64,000 nucleotides of DNA from Chloroflexota bacterium (GTDB lineage Bacteria > Chloroflexota > Dehalococcoidia > Lucifugimonadales > Lucifugimonadaceae). This document shows positions 40,397 to 51,975 of the stretch, in pieces. Location of the stretch: the NCBI GenBank assembly GCA_013204555.1, contig JABMNO010000015.1:1-64000 (forward strand). Direction: 5' to 3'. The notes below the pieces were generated by a model that was not told the origin of the DNA, did no database searches, and saw only the letters and a program-made list of their open reading frames with translations. The position numbers were made by a program, and so were the translations under genes. Within the stretch, counting starts at the first letter, position 1. Each line of letters starts with the position of its first letter.

Positions 40397-40429
40397 GCGT
40401 GTTTGAAACTTCGGCAAGGGATGACGCCG

Positions 40430-43400
40430 ATGCATACACGGAGAGCCTTACTCTGGAAAGCGGCCGGTCTGGGTCTGCTCGTTTCGGTTGCCTGTTCCGG
40501 TGGCGAAGGTGCCATCGCTCCCACAACAGTCCCGAATCCCGGTGATGCTGCGCTATTGGCTCCTGCCAAAGCCGAATTGGAATCCACGCTTGGCCAATTG
40601 CCCCTCCACTTTGAGGTCAATGTGGGGCAGACCGATCATCAGATCGAATTCCTGTCCCGAGTCCGCGGATACAGCCTGTTCCTGGCTTCGGGTGAAGCGA
40701 CTCTGGTTATGAAACGGTCGAGCCCCGACCATGTGGATCCCGCACGCAACGCCGACACAGCCGCATCGTCACAACCCGGGGCGAGCCTCACCAACGAGGC
40801 GCCTGCCTTGCTTCGCATGCGACCTCTGGGAGCTTCCGCTGAATCTCAAGCGGAGGGGCTTGAGCCTTTGCCGGGCATCAGCAACTACTTCATGGGTAGC
40901 GACCCCGAACAGTGGCAGACCAACATCCCGACGTACGCCAGTGTCAAATATCGGGACGTGTATCCGGGAGTCGATCTGATTTACTATGGCGATCAAGGCC
41001 GACTTGAATTCGACTTCGTTGTCGATCCAGGTAGGAACCCCTCCACCATCAATCTGGCTTTCGATGGCGCCGACGAAGCCCGGATCGATTCGGAGGGAGA
41101 CCTGGTGCTCGGGGTCCACGGTGAGACCCTGCGCCTCAGCGCGCCATCGATCTACCAGGAGATCGACGGCGTCCGACGCGTAGTTCCCGGCGGCTACGAT
41201 TTGAGTACTCCCCCAAATATTGACGGGACTGTTGAGGTTGGCTTCTCTGTTGATGACTACGATTCTGGGCGGCCCTTAATTATCGACCCCGTACTGGAGT
41301 ACTCAAGCTACATTGGCTGGTCAGGTGTTGATGCCGCCAGTGATATCACCCTGGACGCTGCCGGCAATATTTATCTGACTGGGAGCGCTGACTCAGTCGC
41401 GAGTTCGACTGTCACCTTCCTTGGTGTGTCCGCGGGAATAGACGGCTTCATCGCCAAACTGAACCCTGACGGCTCGACCATGATTTATACGACATTTTTT
41501 GGCGGGAGTGGCATCGATGGCCCCGCGGCCATCGCCCTGGACAGTTCCGGCGGCGTCATTGTGGGCGGGTACACCACCTCAACCGACTTTCCGGCCACCA
41601 ACGAGTCTTTCCAGATCGACTTTGCCGGCAACACTGACGGCTTCGTGCTCAACCTCCATTCAAGCGGCGGGACCCTGAGCTATGCGACTTACCTTGGCGG
41701 CAGTGACCAGGACGTGATCTCGGACATCGCGGTCGCGGGGTCAGGGGATGTATATGTAGTCGGGAAAACCTCGTCGGCTAATTTTCCAGTGCTGAATTCG
41801 ATTCAAGCCACGCTCAAGGGAAGTAAAGACGCGTTCATCACCTTCCTCGATCTCGATAGCTCGAATGCCAATGTCATTTGCTACCTCGGATCCCCCAAAA
41901 ACGACTGCGCGGATCTCATTGCGTCCACCTATCTGGGCGGCAGCAATGTCGACGATGGTCACGGGATCGCGCTATCCGGTAATTCCGGCCAGGCGTACGT
42001 GACTGGGCAGACGTGCTCGAATAACTTCCCCGGCACTGCCGGCGGATTCGACGCCTCCGCCAACGGTGGATGCGATGGCTTTGTTGCCGGCGTATTGATG
42101 GGTTCGTCCTCCGGTATTTTGATCTATTCAACCTATCTTGGCGGCACCAGCTTTGATCTTGCGCGGAGCATCATCCAATCCCCCGCAGGAGGGTATTTCA
42201 TCACAGGGGAGACGCTCTCCAACGACTTTCCCGTCAAGTCGGCGGCACAGGCCCAGCACGGCGATAGTGACGGCCAGTACGACGTCTTCGTGACCCACCT
42301 TTTCACCTCAACGTCCAACACTGCGGACGACTGCACAATCTCCGGGCTGGACTACCAAGATTGCAATGACTTGCGATCATCCACGTATCTGGGAGGCAGC
42401 GAGGATGATTACGGCCCGTCTATCGCCACCGACTCGACCGGGATCGCATATGTCACCGGGCAGACCTGCTCCCCTAATTTTCCGCTGGCAAGTCCCCTCG
42501 CGCAGAACTCTGGCCAGGGCATCAATGTCGGCGCCGATTGTGATGCCTTCGTCACCAAGCTAACTCCAAACGGCTCCGGGCTGGCGTATTCCACGTACCT
42601 TGGCGGTAGCTCCTCCGATAGCGGCAACGGAATCTTTGTGGACGGCTTCGGCGTTGTTTACGTAGCCGGCGGAACCTCCTCTGGCAACTTCCCCGAAGTA
42701 AATCCGCTTCAGGCTTCCGGCGGGGGGCAAGACGCCTTTGTGGCCAAAATAACAGTACCGTGCACCGATGGCGGTGGAGCGTACGCGTACACCATCCCCA
42801 ACGTGATCGATACCGTAAATGACTGTTTGATAGGTACCCTCCCAGCAATGTTTGTCACAGGGCAAGCAGTGAGTACCGACGATTCACAACTCTATGTGGC
42901 GGATTTACAGACCGCCTCCTTCATCGACCTTGCAACTAACCAGGTTGATGACTTGATGCCGGCAGGCGTTACTCAATTCCAGAGCGCCGCGGTTAGCCCT
43001 GACGGAACAAGGCTCTATGTAACCGATCACGATGATGCTGACCCCAGCGAGGTCCATGTGTTCGATACGCATACAAAACAGTTCATCGAGTCAATCCCGT
43101 ATGGAGCGGGTGATGCAAGCGGTAGTGTCTCGGGCTCGGGGATCGTCGTTCATCCAAATGGAGAAAAACTGTACGTGGTGGGCAACCACGCCGGCACTCA
43201 CGTTTTCTCGATCAATCTTGGGACCAAGCAAGTCACAAACATCGACTACACCGTTACTAATTCGTTCAAGTTATGGGATGCTGCTATCACACCGGACGGC
43301 AAGTGGCTTTACGTCGCCCAGAGTTCCGATAATGACACGGTAGCTGTAATCGACGCCACCACCGATACCTGGGTTGAGGACATCGCGGTGGAGGATGCCA

Positions 43401-44626
43401 GGTATGTGGCGATCACACCGAATAAGGTGCCAGGCCATGAGTACCTTGTTTACGTCACCGCTGAGACCTTCGAAAACCCTGATCTCACCGTGATTGACAC
43501 CGACGACAATGCCATTGTGCATGTGGAACCTGACGCCGGGGGGGGCAACGTAGAAGTGACGCCGGATGCGACGAAGGTCTACGTGATTACCGAGTTCGTC
43601 AAGGTAATCGATGTGGCCACGAACCAATGGGTCAAAAACGTGCCTGGCCCACCCACCGCAAGCATGATCGGTTCATTCATTGGGCCTCAAGATCGAGATG
43701 CTGATGGGATTATTGACCAAGTGGACATCGACCCGATCGCTGCCTCTGATGCATTTGGAGATGGGACCAGCTCCGGTACGGTCATCGACCGGGCCGACCA
43801 GAACGTGACCGTCTGGGATGCGTTCGGTAACGGGCTTTACGCTAACGCGCGCGGAGGCACTCAAACAGCCCAGATCAATGCGTGCGGCCTGGATATCTAT
43901 CTCGATCAGAACGACGCCATCAAGATCCAATGCGGCTCGTTAAAATTGGAGGTCACCAACGGCGCGGTAGAAGTTCGCCTGGACGCCGACACGCTGGTCG
44001 CACTTTCTGGTGGTAGCGAGGTCAAAATCTCGGAAACCGCATCCGGCGAGTATCTGGTCGAAAACCGTGGGCGCCGACCGTTGATGATCACCGATGGCGT
44101 TGGAGCCACCATTGACACCATCGCTGAGGCGAATTCCTGGACCACGAACGGCACCGTCAGGCAGACGCTGTCTGGTGTTTTGACTCTCCAATCCGTGGAA
44201 TCGACAAGTTCGTTCGCCCAAATTGCTCCTCGCCTCACCCTCATGCCCACAGATGGCGGTACTCCGGTCGTGGTAATTCCTAATCCTGATGGAAGCTTCG
44301 AATTTGCGAGTCTCTTGCCGTGGAGCTATGAGATCTCCGTGTCGGCGGCTGGGTTCATGGTGGCAGCGAAGGTCGAATTCCCCGTGGGCGGATCTCCTGT
44401 CGTCTTGCCGAACGTACAACTGCGTGCGGGACTCGTCGACCGCGATGATGGGATTACCATTCGCGACCTCAGCGCGATCACAGCATCGTTTGGCCAGGCA
44501 GTTGTTGCAAGAACGGATGGACTTGGACGCATTGTCGATCTCAACGCCGATGGAGTTGTCGATATTCTCGACGTCTCAGCAGCGGCCTCAAACTTTGGCT
44601 CGGCAAGTCCGATGGTTTGGCCATAG
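40430..44626 (+). CDS. Large lipoprotein: SBBP propeller, YVTN propeller, dockerin-like tail
   Basis: 1398-residue surface protein. MHTRRALLWKAAG...LLVSVACSGG is a lipoprotein signal with a lipobox Cys. A first domain (LHFEVNVGQTDHQIEFLSR ... YPGVDLIYYG) typically precedes SBBP repeats, which follow as blocks of STYLGGSxxD...ATGxTxSxxFP type (eight or so, to about residue 790). A second propeller of YVTN type (LYVADLQTASFIDL, TPDGKWLYVAQSSDNDTVAV) comes next, then a FecR-like stretch, a carboxypeptidase-regulatory-like domain and a C-terminal dockerin-like pair (DGITIRDLSAITASFGQ and DLNADGVVDILDVSAAASNFG). ATG 40430 follows AGGG and fits the signal peptide; 40403 and 40421 are alternatives. 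Function unknown, probably adhesion or a cell-surface scaffold. Confidence 0.85.
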   Translation: MHTRRALLWKAAGLGLLVSVACSGGEGAIAPTTVPNPGDAALLAPAKAELESTLGQLPLHFEVNVGQTDHQIEFLSRVRGYSLFLASGEATLVMKRSSPDHVDPARNADTAASSQPGASLTNEAPALLRMRPLGASAESQAEGLEPLPGISNYFMGSDPEQWQTNIPTYASVKYRDVYPGVDLIYYGDQGRLEFDFVVDPGRNPSTINLAFDGADEARIDSEGDLVLGVHGETLRLSAPSIYQEIDGVRRVVPGGYDLSTPPNIDGTVEVGFSVDDYDSGRPLIIDPVLEYSSYIGWSGVDAASDITLDAAGNIYLTGSADSVASSTVTFLGVSAGIDGFIAKLNPDGSTMIYTTFFGGSGIDGPAAIALDSSGGVIVGGYTTSTDFPATNESFQIDFAGNTDGFVLNLHSSGGTLSYATYLGGSDQDVISDIAVAGSGDVYVVGKTSSANFPVLNSIQATLKGSKDAFITFLDLDSSNANVICYLGSPKNDCADLIASTYLGGSNVDDGHGIALSGNSGQAYVTGQTCSNNFPGTAGGFDASANGGCDGFVAGVLMGSSSGILIYSTYLGGTSFDLARSIIQSPAGGYFITGETLSNDFPVKSAAQAQHGDSDGQYDVFVTHLFTSTSNTADDCTISGLDYQDCNDLRSSTYLGGSEDDYGPSIATDSTGIAYVTGQTCSPNFPLASPLAQNSGQGINVGADCDAFVTKLTPNGSGLAYSTYLGGSSSDSGNGIFVDGFGVVYVAGGTSSGNFPEVNPLQASGGGQDAFVAKITVPCTDGGGAYAYTIPNVIDTVNDCLIGTLPAMFVTGQAVSTDDSQLYVADLQTASFIDLATNQVDDLMPAGVTQFQSAAVSPDGTRLYVTDHDDADPSEVHVFDTHTKQFIESIPYGAGDASGSVSGSGIVVHPNGEKLYVVGNHAGTHVFSINLGTKQVTNIDYTVTNSFKLWDAAITPDGKWLYVAQSSDNDTVAVIDATTDTWVEDIAVEDARYVAITPNKVPGHEYLVYVTAETFENPDLTVIDTDDNAIVHVEPDAGGGNVEVTPDATKVYVITEFVKVIDVATNQWVKNVPGPPTASMIGSFIGPQDRDADGIIDQVDIDPIAASDAFGDGTSSGTVIDRADQNVTVWDAFGNGLYANARGGTQTAQINACGLDIYLDQNDAIKIQCGSLKLEVTNGAVEVRLDADTLVALSGGSEVKISETASGEYLVENRGRRPLMITDGVGATIDTIAEANSWTTNGTVRQTLSGVLTLQSVESTSSFAQIAPRLTLMPTDGGTPVVVIPNPDGSFEFASLLPWSYEISVSAAGFMVAAKVEFPVGGSPVVLPNVQLRAGLVDRDDGITIRDLSAITASFGQAVVARTDGLGRIVDLNADGVVDILDVSAAASNFGSASPMVWP

Positions 44627-44661: not shown

Positions 44662-45723
44662 TTAAACGTCCAGCGCCGTCGAGAAGTCTGGCACGCCTTC
44701 CCATCTGCCCGCGTTCCCACTGGCTCGCATCACAGCTATGGTCTTTATGACCTCAGGGTTGGCGAGACCATGCGGCCGTTCACCGCTAAGCACCCGCACA
44801 ACGTTCTCCGCCTGACGCCTACCTGATTCCGAAACGAATGTTGGCGACCAACCGGCGAGGTGTGGTGTGATGATGATGTTGTCGAGTGAGAGGAGCGGAT
44901 CTTCCGGATCCACCGGCTCAACTTCAGTCACATCGATTCCAGCGGAGGCGATGACCCGGTCGCGAAGTGCAGCGTGAAGGGCGACGCCATCGACGGTCTG
45001 GCCTCTTGAGCAGTTGATCAGTATGGCGCTGTGCTTCATCTTGCCAAGCGTGTCGGCATTGATGATGTGGTGCGTCTCTTTCGTGTGCGGCGTGTGGACC
45101 GTAATGAAGTCTGACTCATCGAGCAGTTCGTCAAGGCCAACTAGCTGAACGCCGTAAAGATCGGCTGCGGTCTGTGGCACATAGGGGTCGTACGCTATGA
45201 TCCTGGCGGGGCCAAAGCCCCGTATTCGCGTTGCGAAGGCCCGGCCAATGTTGCCGAAGCCAATGATGCCGGCTGTGTGGCCCGCCACCCTTTGCACGCT
45301 GACCTGGTACTGGCCCATGAGCGGCTTGTCATCCGTCCAGGCGCCCCGCTTTACTGCGGCGGCAGTTTCAGGAATCTTGCGCAGCAGAGTTAGCAACAGG
45401 CCGACCGCGTGGTCAGCGACTTCAGTCGTATTCACGCCGGGTGTGTTGCAAGCCAGGACCCCAAGTTCGGTCGCTGCATCCATGTCGATCGAGTCAACTC
45501 CAACACCCATCCTGCTGACGACCTTCAGTTTCGGGCATGCCTCAAGGACTTCTCTGTCAGTCAGCGGCCATACGCTGATCAGCGCGCCATCACAATCCTT
45601 GATCGTGTCGATGTATTCGGCAGTAGTCGAAAAAGGGCCTCGAACTACCTCCATCCCTGCATCTGTGATCACGCTAGCCGGAGCGTAATCGGTGCCCGTG
45701 GTAATAGCGATCTTGTACGGCAT
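44662..45723 (-). CDS. Phosphoglycerate dehydrogenase-like 2-hydroxyacid dehydrogenase
   Basis: 353-residue D-isomer 2-hydroxyacid dehydrogenase. VVSRMGVGVDSIDMDAATELGV, Rossmann GIIGFGNIGRAFATRIRGFG, catalytic Arg in INCSRGQTVDGVAL, Glu in VTEVEPVDPEDPL and His in ITPHLAGWSP. No ACT or ASB domain. It is distinct from the 428-1429 paralogue. Together with the enolase-type and alcohol dehydrogenase genes at the right end it suggests hydroxy-acid catabolism, but no gene next to it fixes a substrate. The 3' end faces the large lipoprotein gene. Confidence 0.88.
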   Translation of the reverse strand: MPYKIAITTGTDYAPASVITDAGMEVVRGPFSTTAEYIDTIKDCDGALISVWPLTDREVLEACPKLKVVSRMGVGVDSIDMDAATELGVLACNTPGVNTTEVADHAVGLLLTLLRKIPETAAAVKRGAWTDDKPLMGQYQVSVQRVAGHTAGIIGFGNIGRAFATRIRGFGPARIIAYDPYVPQTAADLYGVQLVGLDELLDESDFITVHTPHTKETHHIINADTLGKMKHSAILINCSRGQTVDGVALHAALRDRVIASAGIDVTEVEPVDPEDPLLSLDNIIITPHLAGWSPTFVSESGRRQAENVVRVLSGERPHGLANPEVIKTIAVMRASGNAGRWEGVPDFSTALDV

Positions 45724-46171
45724 TCTTGTGGCCCCTGCTGATAAATCTTTGAATTGCAGCGGTCAGTATCGCATTCTCCGAATTTGTTTCCAATTCAGAG
45801 ATGAGTCTGAACAGCGTTTTGTGGTGAGAGCGTTCAGGTTGCCGGAGTTTGGGGTTTTTCTATGTCAGAGAATAGTTTGTTGCATGCCTGATTGAGTCGT
45901 TTGGCGGCTTCATTGTCGCTGCTGGCGTGTGCCAGTTCGTCCAGTTGTTCGAAGCTCACTCCCGGTTTGAGGAACAGTCCTGCGTTTGGCCGTGATCTAA
46001 GCTTTCTACAGACTCACCTGCGCGTCGAAATACGCCTATTCCTTCAAACTCATGTGTCATTGGGCAGAACACCGGATTGACCAACAGCGTTTACGAACTT
46101 AACATGCTCAAGGCGTGTTATGAGTGCACGCAATATTAAGTTTCTGATACCCATTTGTGGAGACGCCAACT
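45724..46171. other. Gene-poor gap before the DUF1800 operon
   Basis: 448 bases between divergent genes. A 41-codon minus-strand frame (45834-45959, GTG start; alanine- and glutamate-rich, with FEQLDELAHASSDNEAAKRL) has coding-like composition and might be a remnant, but nothing confirms it. The last 100 bases are AT-richer and should contain the promoter of the DUF1800 operon. Confidence 0.4.
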
Positions 46172-47572
46172 TTGACTACCGTATCTAACCGGCAATCTAC
46201 CGATGTTGCGCTCATGGCGCATCTGCTACGAAGGGCGGGCTTCGGCGCGACCCGTAATGAGATCGACGAGTACCTGAAAAAAGGGTATGAAGCGGTTGTT
46301 GAGGAGCTTCTTTACCCTGATCATGGTGAGATGGAAGATCAGGATCTGGTCGACCGATATTTCATCGCTTCCGTAGAAGCGCGATCTGCTGGTCACGCTG
46401 ATCCACAGTGGGCGTGGAGGCTCGCAACCAGCCCTAAGCCGCTGGAAGAAAAGATTTCACTGTTCTGGCACGGACTGATGGCGGTTGGCGGAGTCAAGCT
46501 CGACCACGGTCTGGAAATGCTGACCGAAATTGAGTTGTTCAGACAGTTTGGACTGGGACGATTCGAGGATCTGTTGCTGGAAATCTCCCGCAACCCGGGC
46601 ATGATGTACTGGCTGGACAACCAGAACAGTCACAAAGGCGCCCCGAACGAGAACTACGGTCGTGAACTCCTAGAGTTGTTCGCAATGGGCATCGACGAAA
46701 GTGGCGAAGGCGCCTACACCGAAGATGATGTGAAGGCGGCCGCACGAGCGTTTACCGGTTGGGCATCGAAGGTAACGCCGCCACCATTCTTCCTGGGACC
46801 GTTTCCGATGGAGTTCCAATTCGATCCGGAAGATCATGATGATTCCGAGAAAACGTTCCTGGGCCAGACGGGCAACTGGAATGGCGATGATATTGTCCGC
46901 ATGATTTGCGGGCACCGGGCGGCCGCTCACTTTGTGGCACTGAGACTCTACGACTACTTCGTATCGGATACTCCGAACGAGGCTGAGATTGAGCGTCTGA
47001 CCGATGTGTTCCAGGCAAATGATGGCGAGATCCGCTCCGTATTGCGAGAGATATTCAACTCGGATCACTTCAAGTCTGAAGAAGTTCGGTTCAAGAAGAT
47101 GAAGAGCCCGTCAGACCTCGTGTTTGGCACCACGAGGCTTGTGGATCGTTTCGAAATCCCAGAGTCAGACTCTGGAAACCTGGCCAACAACACGATGTTT
47201 ATGGGCCAGCACCTTATGAATCCCCCAAGTGTGGAAGGCTGGCACGAGGGTGAAGAGTGGGTGGATAGCGGCGCGCTGATTGAACGCATCAACTTTGCTT
47301 CAACCGAGGTCTCAAGGCTTGACGCTCGAGGTGTGCAGGAGATGCTAGAACGCGTTCAGAGCGCTGGGGATGAGCTCAACTCAGAGGCGTTCGTGGATGC
47401 TTGTCTGGATGGATTGGGCGCTATTGACGCCTCGGCCCGAACCAAGTCAATTCTTATTGACCACGCCGATCGCTACGGAACACCCTGGGAGCGCGAGGCT
47501 CCTGACGCTATCGAGCGGACAATTGAGATGTTCCAACTGATCGTTTCAACACCCGACTACCAGTACTGCTAA
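46172..47572 (+). CDS. DUF1800 family protein
   Basis: 466 residues of DUF1800. AHLLRRAGFGATRNEIDEYL at the N terminus, the EKISLFWHGLMAVGG segment, NYGRELLELFAMGID and the GHRAAAHFVALRLYDYFVSD block are typical. The family is usually encoded next to DUF1501, as here, and has no proven activity. TTG 46172 has GGAG nine bases upstream; GTG 46157 would add five residues. There is no signal peptide in either version, so the product looks cytosolic. First gene of a three-gene operon. Confidence 0.85.
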   Translation: MTTVSNRQSTDVALMAHLLRRAGFGATRNEIDEYLKKGYEAVVEELLYPDHGEMEDQDLVDRYFIASVEARSAGHADPQWAWRLATSPKPLEEKISLFWHGLMAVGGVKLDHGLEMLTEIELFRQFGLGRFEDLLLEISRNPGMMYWLDNQNSHKGAPNENYGRELLELFAMGIDESGEGAYTEDDVKAAARAFTGWASKVTPPPFFLGPFPMEFQFDPEDHDDSEKTFLGQTGNWNGDDIVRMICGHRAAAHFVALRLYDYFVSDTPNEAEIERLTDVFQANDGEIRSVLREIFNSDHFKSEEVRFKKMKSPSDLVFGTTRLVDRFEIPESDSGNLANNTMFMGQHLMNPPSVEGWHEGEEWVDSGALIERINFASTEVSRLDARGVQEMLERVQSAGDELNSEAFVDACLDGLGAIDASARTKSILIDHADRYGTPWEREAPDAIERTIEMFQLIVSTPDYQYC

Positions 47573-47614
47573 GAACCAACACCTTTGCGCAGTAGCGCAG
47601 GAGATTTTTTTCGA

Positions 47615-48772
47615 ATGACGAGTAACGGACACAACGGATCAAACGGCAGCAAGCGGAAGAACCTGGTGGTGGTTCAGCTTTCTGGTGGGAACGACTACCT
47701 CAACACATTAGTCCCGTATCAGGATGGCCTCTACTACGACTACCGGCCCAACATGGGACTGAAGGGCGAGTCGATAATTCCAATTGACGACCGTATTGGC
47801 TTCAATGCTCACATGGCTCCATTCAAGCGGCTGTATGACAAGGGGATGATGGCCGTCATCATGGGCATCGGATACCCGGAGCCCAACCGGTCGCACTTCC
47901 GCTCGATGGACATCTGGCACACCGCTGAGCCAACCACAAGCTCAGCAGAAGGCTGGCTTGGCAAAGTCACAAAGGCGCTTGACCCAGAGGGCAAAAACCC
48001 GGTCACAGCGGTGAACTTTGGACGTGGCCTGCCCCGGGCACTCGCATTCCCCGGAGTTCCAGTTGCATCAGTGGGTGCGCTGGACTCTTATGGCCTCTAC
48101 ACAGGCCTGGCGGGTGCAGGAAACCGCGACGCTCTTCTTGACACAGTGAGCCGCATCTACCAGCCAATGTCTGCTGAGGGATTCCCGTCACAGCGTCTAC
48201 TGGACACCGGACGAGGCGCGCTTGATGGCGCCGATCTATTGCGACAGGCTCCCAGTCATTACACATCGACCGTCGAGTACCCGGAAGACAACCCCATTGC
48301 GCAGAGCCTCAAGGGCGTGGCGCAGGTCACATCGGCAAATCTCGGCACGAAGATATTCTACACCGCGCACGGCAGCTTTGACACGCATACAAACGAGCTG
48401 GTGAACCACGCACTGCTGTGGGATCAGGTCTCGGAAGCTGTCGAATGTTTCTGGGCAGACATGGAAGAGCAAGGTGAGGCTGAAGACACGGTAATGTGGA
48501 TCTTCACCGAGTTTGGCCGTCGTGTTGCCGACAACGGCACCGGTACGGACCACGGCTCCGGTGGTGGTGCATTCCTGATCGGTCCGTCCGTGAAGGGTGG
48601 GCTCTACGGCGAGTACCCGGACCTGAGCCCAACGGCGCAGCTTGAAGGTGATATCCAGTACAACACGGACTATCGGGACGGCTACGCAACTATCCTTGAA
48701 AGTTTCATGGACCTGGATTCCGAACCAATTTTGAACAGCAAGTTCAGCCAGCTTGACCTTCTCGCGGTATAG
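47615..48772 (+). CDS. DUF1501 family protein
   Basis: 385 residues of DUF1501, a sulfatase/alkaline phosphatase-like fold. KNLVVVQLSGGNDYLNTLVPYQD, GIGYPEPNRSHFRSMDIWHTAEP, the HGSFDTHTNELVNHALLWDQ block and MWIFTEFGRRVADNGTGTDHGSGGGAFLIG give the usual Asp/His metal-site set. Most members begin with a Tat signal; here the N terminus is MTSNGHNGSNGSKRKN with no Tat motif or hydrophobic stretch. ATG 47615 follows GGAG; TTG 47585 would add ten residues and still no signal. Confidence 0.85.
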   Translation: MTSNGHNGSNGSKRKNLVVVQLSGGNDYLNTLVPYQDGLYYDYRPNMGLKGESIIPIDDRIGFNAHMAPFKRLYDKGMMAVIMGIGYPEPNRSHFRSMDIWHTAEPTTSSAEGWLGKVTKALDPEGKNPVTAVNFGRGLPRALAFPGVPVASVGALDSYGLYTGLAGAGNRDALLDTVSRIYQPMSAEGFPSQRLLDTGRGALDGADLLRQAPSHYTSTVEYPEDNPIAQSLKGVAQVTSANLGTKIFYTAHGSFDTHTNELVNHALLWDQVSEAVECFWADMEEQGEAEDTVMWIFTEFGRRVADNGTGTDHGSGGGAFLIGPSVKGGLYGEYPDLSPTAQLEGDIQYNTDYRDGYATILESFMDLDSEPILNSKFSQLDLLAV

Positions 48773-48785
48773 GTTGACTGAATCA

Positions 48786-49760
48786 ATGGCACCAGAAAAC
48801 TTCTCCTACCAGGACACAATCGGCATCGCATCGTTCCTTGGTCGCGGGTTCATGAACCCGGTCGACGTTCGGCTTGATAGCACCGGCATGATGTTCGTCC
48901 TAAGCCGCTCAAACGCGGGCAACAAAAACGTTCGCATCAGCGCTGTCACGTTAGATTCCGAGTTCCAGTACGAGTTTGCGAACTGGGGCACAGAACCCGG
49001 CCAAACGACCATGCCTACGGCGATCGCATTCGACAGCCAGGACCGGGTCTACGTACCAGACGAGCATATGAACAACATCTCGGTGTTCGAACGCGATGGC
49101 ACCTTCGTCAAGCGATGGGGTGAACTCGGTTCGGAACCTGGACAGTTCAATCGACCGTCTGGTCTTGTAATCGACTCCGAAGATAACGTGCTTGTAATGG
49201 ACCATCTAAACGCCCGAGTCCAGAAATTGTCACCAGATGGCGACTACATCTCATCGTTTGGATCAGAAGGCAACGGTCCCGGCGAGTTCAACTTCGCATG
49301 GGGCATCTCTCTTGATTCCGACGATGGAATCTGGATAGCCGACTGGCGTAACGACCGCGTCCAGCGGTTTACGGCCAACGGCGAGTTCGTCTCCACTATT
49401 GGCTCAACCGGCACCGGCGATGGCGAGTTTGATCGCCCATCCGGTGTACACGTCGACGATAGCGGCCAGGTCTACATCGCCGACTGGCGCAACAACCGCG
49501 TCCAGGTCTTCAACAACGATGGCGGCCACATCGAAACGCTCACTGGTGACGCCACGTTATCGAAGTGGTGCCAGGAGTTCGTAGACGTGAACCCGGAGCA
49601 AGCAGGATGGCGCGAGAACGCAGGTCTGTTTGAAGAAGAAAAGCGATTCTGGCGCCCATCCGCCATCGAGACCAACTCAGATGGCCTCGTGCTAATCGCA
49701 GACGCCTGCCGCCACCGCATCCAGATCTACAGCAAGGTTCCAGAGCCTGCCCTGACTTAA
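48786..49760 (+). CDS. NHL-repeat beta-propeller protein
   Basis: 324 residues made almost entirely of NHL repeats, probably a six-bladed propeller. Typical blades read FNRPSGLVIDSEDNVLVMDH and FDRPSGVHVDDSGQVYIADW, with WRNDRVQRF and WRNNRVQVF closing strands. An insertion near residue 265 (WCQEFVDVNPEQAGWREN) breaks the last blade. No signal peptide. ATG 48786 lies 13 bases after the DUF1501 stop, so this is the third gene of the operon. Propellers of this type bind protein, RNA or small ligands; partner unknown. Confidence 0.85.
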   Translation: MAPENFSYQDTIGIASFLGRGFMNPVDVRLDSTGMMFVLSRSNAGNKNVRISAVTLDSEFQYEFANWGTEPGQTTMPTAIAFDSQDRVYVPDEHMNNISVFERDGTFVKRWGELGSEPGQFNRPSGLVIDSEDNVLVMDHLNARVQKLSPDGDYISSFGSEGNGPGEFNFAWGISLDSDDGIWIADWRNDRVQRFTANGEFVSTIGSTGTGDGEFDRPSGVHVDDSGQVYIADWRNNRVQVFNNDGGHIETLTGDATLSKWCQEFVDVNPEQAGWRENAGLFEEEKRFWRPSAIETNSDGLVLIADACRHRIQIYSKVPEPALT

Positions 49761-50480: not shown

Positions 50481-50772
50481 ACGCAGGCAGGTGGCGGGCC
50501 AGACCGCTCCTGCTGAGATAGCGAATCCGCAGTGCCTAAGAGAGATATTGAAGGCACTGACAACGTACTCCGACCAGGGGGAATCCGGACTCGGCTAATC
50601 AGGATTTGCTTCGTGCTGGACTCGTTCAGGTCATCCTGAGATCCTCGAAGGTCCCCCAGAACAGGCACCGCTGAATCCCTCCTGACCAAATCCAAAGAAA
50701 TCCTGTGGGACGCCGCCGCATCAGGCACGTAACTTGGGTGCAGACAAAGCACGCCGCCGTTGGAGAATATTG
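50481..50772. other. Intergenic gap with REP fragment
   Basis: No gene seen. TCAGGTCATCCTGAGATCCTCGAAGG-like sequence near 50628-50653 resembles a widespread REP-type element. The last bases (GGAGAATATTG) form the ribosome binding site of the YHYH lipoprotein. Confidence 0.4.
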
Positions 50773-51975
50773 ATGCCGCAACGATTCCCAAAGCATTTCA
50801 GACTGGTTCCGTTGACCGTCTTCGCGATACTCCTGATCGCATTCACCGCCTGTACCGAGGTGGCTGCCGACCCTCTTGGGGCAACGCCTCTGACGGAAGC
50901 GACCACCCCTGCGAGCGCTGCCCTGCAACCCAAAGCAACGGCAATCGCCACAACGGCAGTTCCGACTACAACACCGACTCCAGAGCCGAACGACGCTCCG
51001 GCAGTTGAGGGTGTGACCCCAGGCCCCGGCGATACAGTGGAACCAGCCGCAGATACGCTCCCACTTCTCCTGACCGAAGCGTGGTCAGACGTATGGCTTT
51101 GCGCCGACGAAGACGTCGCTGTCGAAGACCTCACGGTCAACACCACTCTCAACTGCTCGGTGGGCGTCGAGGTCCAGGGCGACACCCTCGTAATCAACGC
51201 ATCCGGCATTCCAAATCACGATTTCGAATCAACGTTGGGCTGCTGTGCCGCTGAAATCGACAATCGCTGGGTGATTCCGCTCGATCCTCAGCCCGATTCC
51301 GATGGTGAACTTACGATGGCGCCTGAGCGTGGGCCAGTGGCGTTCACCGTGTCTGGTGTGGCGATCTACGGCCCGGAGGAAGGGCCCGGCGGTGACGCTG
51401 TTGCCCTTGAGCACGGCCTGTTTGAAGAAGACCGCCAACCAATCGACCTCGGAGTGTGCGGCGGTCACGCTGGACCCGGCGGTCAGTATCACTACCACTT
51501 CGACGCCAACTGCATCCACTGGCATTCAGATGGCGACGAGGAAATCACGGATTACGAGCCCTCCGACCTCATTGCGAACGGCGAGGCTGAGCTGATCGGC
51601 TTCGCGTTCGATGGATACCCGATCTACGGCACATACGAGCAGGACGTAGACGGCACAATTGTCGAAGTGACATCCTCCTACCGCCTGATCGAGGGAGCGA
51701 ATGGCTACGGCGGAATCGACGACTACGAGTACGTAGATGGCCTTGGTGATCTGGACACCTGCAACGGCCACATCGGATCGACCCCGCAGGCGCCTGATGG
51801 CATCTACCACTACCACTCCACCCTGACCAACGGGAATGGCGACCTCGGGTTCCCGTACTTCCTGCTGTGCTACTACGGCGAAATAGATGATGCCAGCATT
51901 CCAGTCGTGAACGCAGGGCCACTTGGCGGAGGCCGGTTCCCAGGAGGCGGACCGCCCCCGCCGCGCCCAAGGTAA
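50773..51975 (+). CDS. YHYH domain lipoprotein
   Basis: About 400 residues. The N terminus is a lipoprotein signal (VPLTVFAILLIAFTAC); a Thr/Pro-rich linker (ATTAVPTTTPTPEPND) follows. The YHYH domain begins near residue 95 and contains GQYHYHFDANCIHWHSDGDEE and GIYHYHSTL, His-rich blocks that look like a metal site, plus several Cys that may form disulfides (GCCAAE, VCGGH). The C terminus is Gly/Pro-rich (GGRFPGGGPPPPRPR). YHYH proteins are common in marine bacteria and have no assigned role. ATG 50773 has GGAGA upstream. Confidence 0.85.
   Translation: MPQRFPKHFRLVPLTVFAILLIAFTACTEVAADPLGATPLTEATTPASAALQPKATAIATTAVPTTTPTPEPNDAPAVEGVTPGPGDTVEPAADTLPLLLTEAWSDVWLCADEDVAVEDLTVNTTLNCSVGVEVQGDTLVINASGIPNHDFESTLGCCAAEIDNRWVIPLDPQPDSDGELTMAPERGPVAFTVSGVAIYGPEEGPGGDAVALEHGLFEEDRQPIDLGVCGGHAGPGGQYHYHFDANCIHWHSDGDEEITDYEPSDLIANGEAELIGFAFDGYPIYGTYEQDVDGTIVEVTSSYRLIEGANGYGGIDDYEYVDGLGDLDTCNGHIGSTPQAPDGIYHYHSTLTNGNGDLGFPYFLLCYYGEIDDASIPVVNAGPLGGGRFPGGGPPPPRPR

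Follow-up and report, generated by a model that had tools for sequence, protein, structure and literature searches.

Members of the DUF1501 family that have been described usually carry a twin-arginine translocation (Tat) leader, though this feature lies outside the Pfam definition of the family. Why, then, does a DUF1800-DUF1501-NHL gene cassette at positions 46,172 to 49,760 of a 64,000-nucleotide stretch from a Chloroflexota bacterium (contig JABMNO010000015.1, assembly GCA_013204555.1; the whole stretch is called the window) show no export signal on any of its three products? The answer we favor, with a probability of roughly 0.55, is that DUF1501 and DUF1800 make up a hydrolase-like core in the cytoplasm, joined by a β-propeller partner, and that this unit split once from exported DUF1800-DUF1501 pairs and then multiplied. 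This reading builds on observed gene content, leader absence, recurrence, a single tree branch and selection, and on predicted folds; a complex, catalysis, a substrate class and a role for the propeller are what it would add.

The DUF1800 gene (46157..47572, forward strand; PF08811, E 1.3e-102) scored 344.6 bits against a curated cut-off of 26.1, and the DUF1501 gene (47585..48772, forward strand; PF07394, E 8.9e-24) 84.8 bits against a cut-off of 27, making both members of their families. The NHL β-propeller gene (48753..49760, forward strand) matched PF01436 (E 1.2e-34); its product scored 164 bits with the ScyF-type model NF035926, below the curated cut-off of 350, and is not a member of that group. 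Probable starts, chosen from paralogues and upstream bases, are TTG 46172 for DUF1800, which is preceded by GGAGA and gives an N-terminus resembling those of the paralogues; ATG 47615 for DUF1501, from which the first strand of the modeled structure starts at residue 16; and ATG 48786 for NHL. None of these starts gives a leader. Leaders were sought by eye and with a simple twin-arginine motif and hydrophobicity test, and no Tat motif or hydrophobic leader was found from any in-frame start of the three window genes. A missed upstream start giving a Tat signal, which the earlier note on this DNA had named as what would overturn its claim, was looked for and is ruled out for the window copy: read back to the preceding stop, the frames of DUF1800, DUF1501 and NHL extend beyond their first start codons (46157, 47585 and 48753) by only 3, 4 and 6 codons, respectively, the DUF1800 frame opening at 46148 and the DUF1501 frame at 47573. 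The proposal in that note of a DUF1800-DUF1501-NHL unit without export signals is confirmed by Pfam and by examination of every in-frame start.

The window copy is one of several. A profile search of the source genome (82 contigs, 3.73 Mb, about 93% complete) returned seven DUF1501 and seven DUF1800 matches, which form seven pairs, the two genes lying close together on one strand at the window locus and at six others. An NHL gene was present at all seven pairs, giving seven full triples in three gene orders, with the NHL gene between DUF1800 and DUF1501 at one locus. Identity of the paralogues to the window copy was 45-54% for DUF1501, 40-44% for DUF1800 and 35-43% for NHL. With frames read back to the stop, no leader was seen by eye in any of the 21 proteins, and the automatic test flagged none among 6 DUF1501, 7 DUF1800 and 7 NHL frames. 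Loss of the whole Tat pathway is ruled out as the cause, because the source genome retains TatC.

A scan of named genomes gave at least 585 DUF1501 relatives, of which the best 80 loci were kept, several from one genome. Seventy-six are labelled Chloroflexi, Chloroflexota, Dehalococcoidia or SAR202; the others are labelled Mycobacterium sp. SM1 (L027), Proteobacteria (L072) and Poribacteria (L095, L098). The gene-neighbourhood search that the earlier note had called for found all three genes side by side at 69 of these 80 loci, in the orders DUF1800-DUF1501-NHL (46), DUF1501-DUF1800-NHL (13) and DUF1800-NHL-DUF1501 (7) and, in two further arrangements, with additional DUF1800 and NHL genes (3). 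Since all seven source-genome loci and 69 of 80 named loci carry the triple, it is not a chance arrangement; eight of the 11 incomplete loci lie within 1 kb of the end of the available stretch. The locus labelled Mycobacterium sp. SM1, far from Chloroflexota, holds a complete triple whose DUF1501 is 59% identical. No plasmid record matched the window DUF1501 at ≥60% identity (19 records fell below this value), and 52 plasmid records matched an exported-type DUF1501 query.

Leaders were likewise scarce in the relatives. An RR motif occurred in one of the 80 NHL-type DUF1501 proteins (N-terminal RRDFL in L078:4956-6122), without a hydrophobic stretch; because this protein sits within the NHL-type clade, the motif is probably not an ancestral remnant. 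The leader test flagged four of 75 DUF1800 and two of 72 NHL frames, which by eye we judged to be extended frames: in L094, L063, L034 (NHL) and L080 it is the extended part, ahead of the domain, that contains the motif; the L034 DUF1800 has a hydrophobic upstream stretch, yet its internal ATG agrees with relatives; and in L049 the RR sits in the domain start itself.

The 30 PF07394 matches that scored highest in the class, chosen by score and not at random, supplied an exported-type sister group. Twenty-nine of these matched the DUF1501 profile, at lower scores than the NHL-type proteins, and one (L101) did not. A Tat motif precedes the domain in 28 of the 29, the exception (L122) having a leader-like stretch, so that the expectation of a Tat signal on DUF1501 proteins, voiced in the earlier note, holds for this group. 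A DUF1800 gene was present at 28 of the 29 loci (absent at L108), and no NHL match was found in the short flanks of any. Wider flanks were compared for 12 exported-type loci, three of them already in the set of 29 and two (L148, L149) with a short upstream flank: none of the 12 had an NHL match, and a twin-arginine motif was visible in 11, L147 having a lipoprotein-like stretch instead. All seven NHL-type loci in the same comparison had an NHL gene and lacked a leader. With NHL at 7/7 leaderless and 0/12 exported-type loci, the NHL partner accompanies leader loss.

In a DUF1501 tree of 127 rows, labelled by the search or score that retrieved them and not by leader, the 86 NHL-type rows formed one side of a single branch with a Shimodaira-Hasegawa-like approximate likelihood ratio support of 99; this was a quick, unrooted tree without bootstrap, with some long exported-type branches and three exported-type genes entered twice. 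Leader absence is a trait of the whole clade, not a quirk of one copy. Most simply, the unit would have split once from Tat-exported DUF1800-DUF1501 pairs by losing the leader and gaining the propeller; because the tree is unrooted, this direction of change is inferred and not read from the tree. A survey of the phylum with the DUF1501 profile (400 genomes, at most four candidates scored per genome) found matches at E 1e-60 or better in 122 genomes; scores of ≥500 bits occurred in 15, and the next near-full-length match scored 396. Separately, the top-scoring PF07394 hit of the class-wide survey (L132, in genome G231) matched none of the profiles, DUF1501 included; it lies among overlapping long frames at a contig end, and the contig may be mis-binned or chimeric.

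An intracellular location, as proposed in the earlier note, draws support beyond the missing leader. NHL-type DUF1501 proteins have more cysteine than exported-type ones (1.26 per protein in 86 rows versus 0.37 in 41; Mann-Whitney p 2e-6), as do the DUF1800 proteins (3.46 in 82 rows versus 0.60 in 20; p 4e-10), with p-values that are optimistic because the sequences are related. Borderline hydrophobic segments (hydrophobicity ≥1.6 over 19 residues) are scarce: each family has a single protein with one (among 86 DUF1501, 82 DUF1800 and 76 NHL proteins), and the maximum is 1.70. These data bear on a different possibility, namely export without a cleaved leader, by non-classical secretion or by carriage on another protein. 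The sister group is of Tat-exported type and the Tat pathway can carry partners that lack a leader, which is in favor of this possibility. Yet none of the three cassette proteins of the window has a leader, which rules each of them out as the carrier; the scan of flanking genes described below gave no recurrent fourth gene; and cysteine is higher than in the exported-type group. We regard leaderless export as quite improbable.

Several features point to a unit consisting of just these three genes. Neighbouring cassette genes are separated by a median of 60 bases; of 158 gaps, 131 are below 100 and three above 500. The strands of the flanking genes are near even (43 to 38 upstream, 43 to 36 downstream), and no flanking family occurred in more than three of 65 upstream or three of 63 downstream genes, in a scan that covered 128 of 160 flanking genes and omitted four of more than 900 residues and 28 others, mostly of fewer than 130. 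As the flank strands are close to 50:50 and no neighbour recurs, the unit is these three genes; a fourth partner gene was thereby rejected among immediate-neighbour families. Across 70 triples, distance matrices correlated at 0.80 for DUF1501-DUF1800, 0.71 for DUF1501-NHL and 0.75 for DUF1800-NHL, values that include shared species history and that none of 5000 permutations reached. Among the seven source-genome paralogues the correlation was 0.67 for DUF1501-DUF1800 (15 of 5040 permutations as high) and 0.53 for DUF1501-NHL (95 of 5040). The ratio of nonsynonymous to synonymous substitution rates (dN/dS) between close-relative pairs was 0.021-0.111 in the 10 of 12 comparisons that could be computed; the NHL-type proteins are under purifying selection. 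The tight spacing and the co-divergence fit a complex of the three proteins in which the propeller would give specificity.

It could be argued that the NHL gene is merely a neighbour and that only the DUF1800-DUF1501 pair, by now cytoplasmic, works as a unit. NHL repeats are common, and co-divergence of DUF1800 and NHL is weak among the source-genome paralogues (r 0.29, with 798 of 5040 permutations as high, which is chance-like). Set against this, the NHL gene keeps its place next to the pair in each of three gene orders, and none was found at exported-type pairs. Further, at three loci (L028, L042, L064) extra DUF1800 and NHL genes surround a single DUF1501, where a second DUF1501 beyond the available stretch is possible; this may be a sign that DUF1800 and NHL are partners of each other. 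A bystander role for the propeller seems to us very improbable.

The hydrolase-like character of the proposed core comes from the predicted structure of DUF1501. The AlphaFold2 model (predicted local distance difference test score, pLDDT, 87.7; predicted template modeling score, pTM, 0.87) has a predicted alpha/beta core fold of the alkaline phosphatase superfamily: among the Foldseek hits listed, most were sulfatases and related proteins, and the best structural alignments were to nucleotide pyrophosphatases/phosphodiesterases (NPP/ENPP), led by the Xac NPP (7mw8_C; Z 19.0, root mean square deviation 3.0, 240 residues). The listed structural alignments, which include other members of the superfamily, had Z values of 16.3-19.0 over 227-276 residues. 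The source genome has fifteen stretches matching Phosphodiest, some of which may be pieces of one gene, so that proteins of alkaline phosphatase fold look numerous in it.

Conservation marks out a candidate active site, here counted in 63 NHL-type and 21 exported-type sequences (84 of 115). Invariant in both groups are D27, S93, H94, D256, H258, E299, R302, R303, N307, D312 and H313. In the window, on the forward strand, Asp27 (codon 47693..47695; 63/63 and 21/21) is a candidate active-site residue; Ser93-His94 (47891..47896; 84/84) is the candidate nucleophile position; and Asp256-x-His258 (48380..48388; both 84/84), Glu299 in an EFGRR motif (48509..48511; 84/84) and Asp312-His313 (48548..48553; 84/84) are candidate metal ligands. 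The catalytic and metal roles of these residues are assigned by inference. Around Ser93 there is also a motif typical of the NHL-type clade, with R92 in 61/63 NHL-type versus 5/21 exported-type proteins, R96 in 63/63 versus 9/21, D99 in 62/63 versus 9/21 and H102 in 62/63 versus 5/21.

The candidate site is also where an alternative reading enters, in which the triple is cytoplasmic but non-enzymatic, DUF1501 being a scaffold or binding protein of alkaline phosphatase fold and the triple a structural or sensing module. In the alkaline phosphatase superfamily an Asp-His pair serves as metal ligands. In DUF1501 this pair seems to be replaced by the Glu-Phe of EFGRR, and given this replacement the site may be altered. 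Profile comparison of DUF1501 with the relatives' Phosphodiest proteins gave nothing (E 0.55, no aligned columns), and no solved relative was found by sequence at E up to 1. DUF1501 resembles NPP/ENPP in predicted fold and differs from it in sequence, with 9-14% identity in the listed rows. A pure scaffold, however, would not need D27, S93, D256, H258, E299, D312 and H313, which are invariant in all 84 sequences, and on balance we think the non-enzymatic alternative rather unlikely.

The apparently altered pair and the missing profile match weigh against a cytoplasmic hydrolase-like assembly, and so do some further points. At L046, L053 and L058 a leaderless DUF1501 has neither partner within about 5 kb on either side. 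The correlations across 70 triples carry the shared species history noted above, and the DUF1800-NHL value among the source-genome paralogues is at chance level. Of the window genes themselves, only DUF1501 yielded a dN/dS value (0.047).

The structural searches said less about DUF1800, whose AlphaFold2 model had a pLDDT of 93.2 and a pTM of 0.93. No match to its fold was found in the PDB (best Foldseek E 0.55; none of 630 chains with Z ≥2), which does not prove a new fold. The NHL profile matched propellers of known structure, TRIM71 and Thin, TRIM71 being the best. Besides its own family, the window DUF1800 had only a weak Pfam match to PSD2 (E 0.027), and neither PSCyt2 (PF07583) nor PSD1 (PF07587) was found in it by Pfam. 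Profile-profile comparison with hhalign nevertheless aligned DUF1800 with the PSCyt2-PSD1 protein at a probability of 87.6 (E 3.5e-6) over 243 columns in the same order; when only the seven source-genome DUF1800 sequences were used, the result was weaker (probability 42.2, E 2.6e-4, 89 columns). Thirty column-shuffled controls gave ≤0.9 and the reversed alignment 0.2, and comparison of the DUF1800 and DUF1501 profiles gave 0.4. DUF1800 is therefore a probable remote homologue, as judged from profiles, of the planctomycete-type PSCyt2-PSD1 protein.

The PSCyt2-PSD1 protein, too, adjoins exported-type DUF1501. Of eight stretches retrieved, four (L178-L181) were examined for DUF1501, and at all four a PSCyt2-PSD1 protein adjoins a DUF1501 with a Tat-type leader; a WD40 propeller gene adjoins at L181, and the cytochrome domain PSCyt1 is present at L177, L178 and L179. 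The two Poribacteria genomes that hold L095 and L098 gave nine PSD1 matches, and both kinds of module were found in them; they are metagenome-assembled, so mis-binning is possible. PSD1 had no match in 148 genomes of the class of the source organism, in a search whose controls gave none either. The combination of a DUF1800-like partner with DUF1501, at times with a propeller, suggests an association older and wider than the present cassette.

Parts of this picture have precedents. PMC5122149 describes an exported DUF1800-DUF1501 pair beside bacterial chitin synthase genes, and in PMC5587647 DUF1501 is reported as a frequent annotation around WD40 genes of Planctomycetes. According to PMC4452313 (2015), DUF1501 lacks any characterization; a redox role for PSD1/PSC2 proteins is a suggestion cited in PMC2754498. 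No description of a signal-free DUF1800-DUF1501-NHL triple was found in the portions of the open-licence literature covered. On that coverage, the signal-free NHL triple appears to be new, and the DUF1800-DUF1501 pair and the DUF1501-WD40 neighbourhood in Planctomycetes already known. The exported pair (loci among L102-L130) shares with the cassette the same two families and the same invariant DUF1501 residues; unlike the cassette, it has the Tat leader (28/29), and no NHL gene was found nearby. The planctomycete-type module of PSCyt2 (DUF1549), PSD1 (DUF1553) and DUF1501 likewise places DUF1501 beside a DUF1800-like partner, but differs in its Tat-type leader on DUF1501, in PSCyt1 at three loci, in having WD40 and not NHL (one locus seen), and in size and domain make-up.

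Taken as a mechanism, the three genes would form an operon-like unit encoding a cytoplasmic assembly. DUF1501 would be its hydrolase-like subunit, with a phospho- or sulfo-ester as the probable substrate, and DUF1800, the usual helical partner of DUF1501, would make up a soluble core with it. The NHL propeller may bind this pair and present, select or position the substrate, or hold the pair together. After its split from the exported pairs the unit would have multiplied within genomes, to seven copies here, and its paralogues may have adapted to different substrates. A more specific version, possible and still tentative, is an intracellular machine with a DUF1501 hydrolase core, a DUF1800 partner and NHL as an exchangeable substrate adaptor, kept in several diverged Chloroflexota copies and forming the cytoplasmic branch of a superfamily that also comprises the exported pairs and the PSCyt2-PSD1-DUF1501/WD40 modules.

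DUF1501 and DUF1800 are families of unknown function, and a soluble, signal-free triple, whose NHL partner is a consistent one, may suit expression and assay better than the exported forms. As leader loss and an NHL partner go together, they yield a direct hypothesis on the role of the propeller, and homology of DUF1800 with PSCyt2-PSD1, if confirmed, would turn DUF1800 and DUF1549/DUF1553 into a single problem. That one genome keeps seven diverged copies suggests that these bacteria have a noticeable share of biochemistry yet to be read.

Some minor features of the region remain. At 47584-47609, in the gap that separates the DUF1800 stop from the DUF1501 start, a short G+C-rich hairpin with a T run behind it coincides with GGAG, which may be a ribosome-binding site; as a terminator this candidate was rejected, terminator-like sites being at chance level for the region. 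Promoter-like sites in the region numbered three against a shuffle mean of 2.2 and were not used as evidence. Upstream, 40403-44626 encodes a lipoprotein-like protein of 1407 residues that contains DUF7948 and SBBP propeller repeats and is separate from the cassette. The tie between the two suggested in the earlier note is unsupported: an opposite-strand 2-hydroxyacid dehydrogenase gene (44662-45723) sits between them, and the immediate neighbours of cassettes do not recur (second neighbours were not surveyed), so the closeness looks incidental. Downstream of the cassette, 50734-51975 encodes a YHYH-domain protein with a lipoprotein-like N-terminus.

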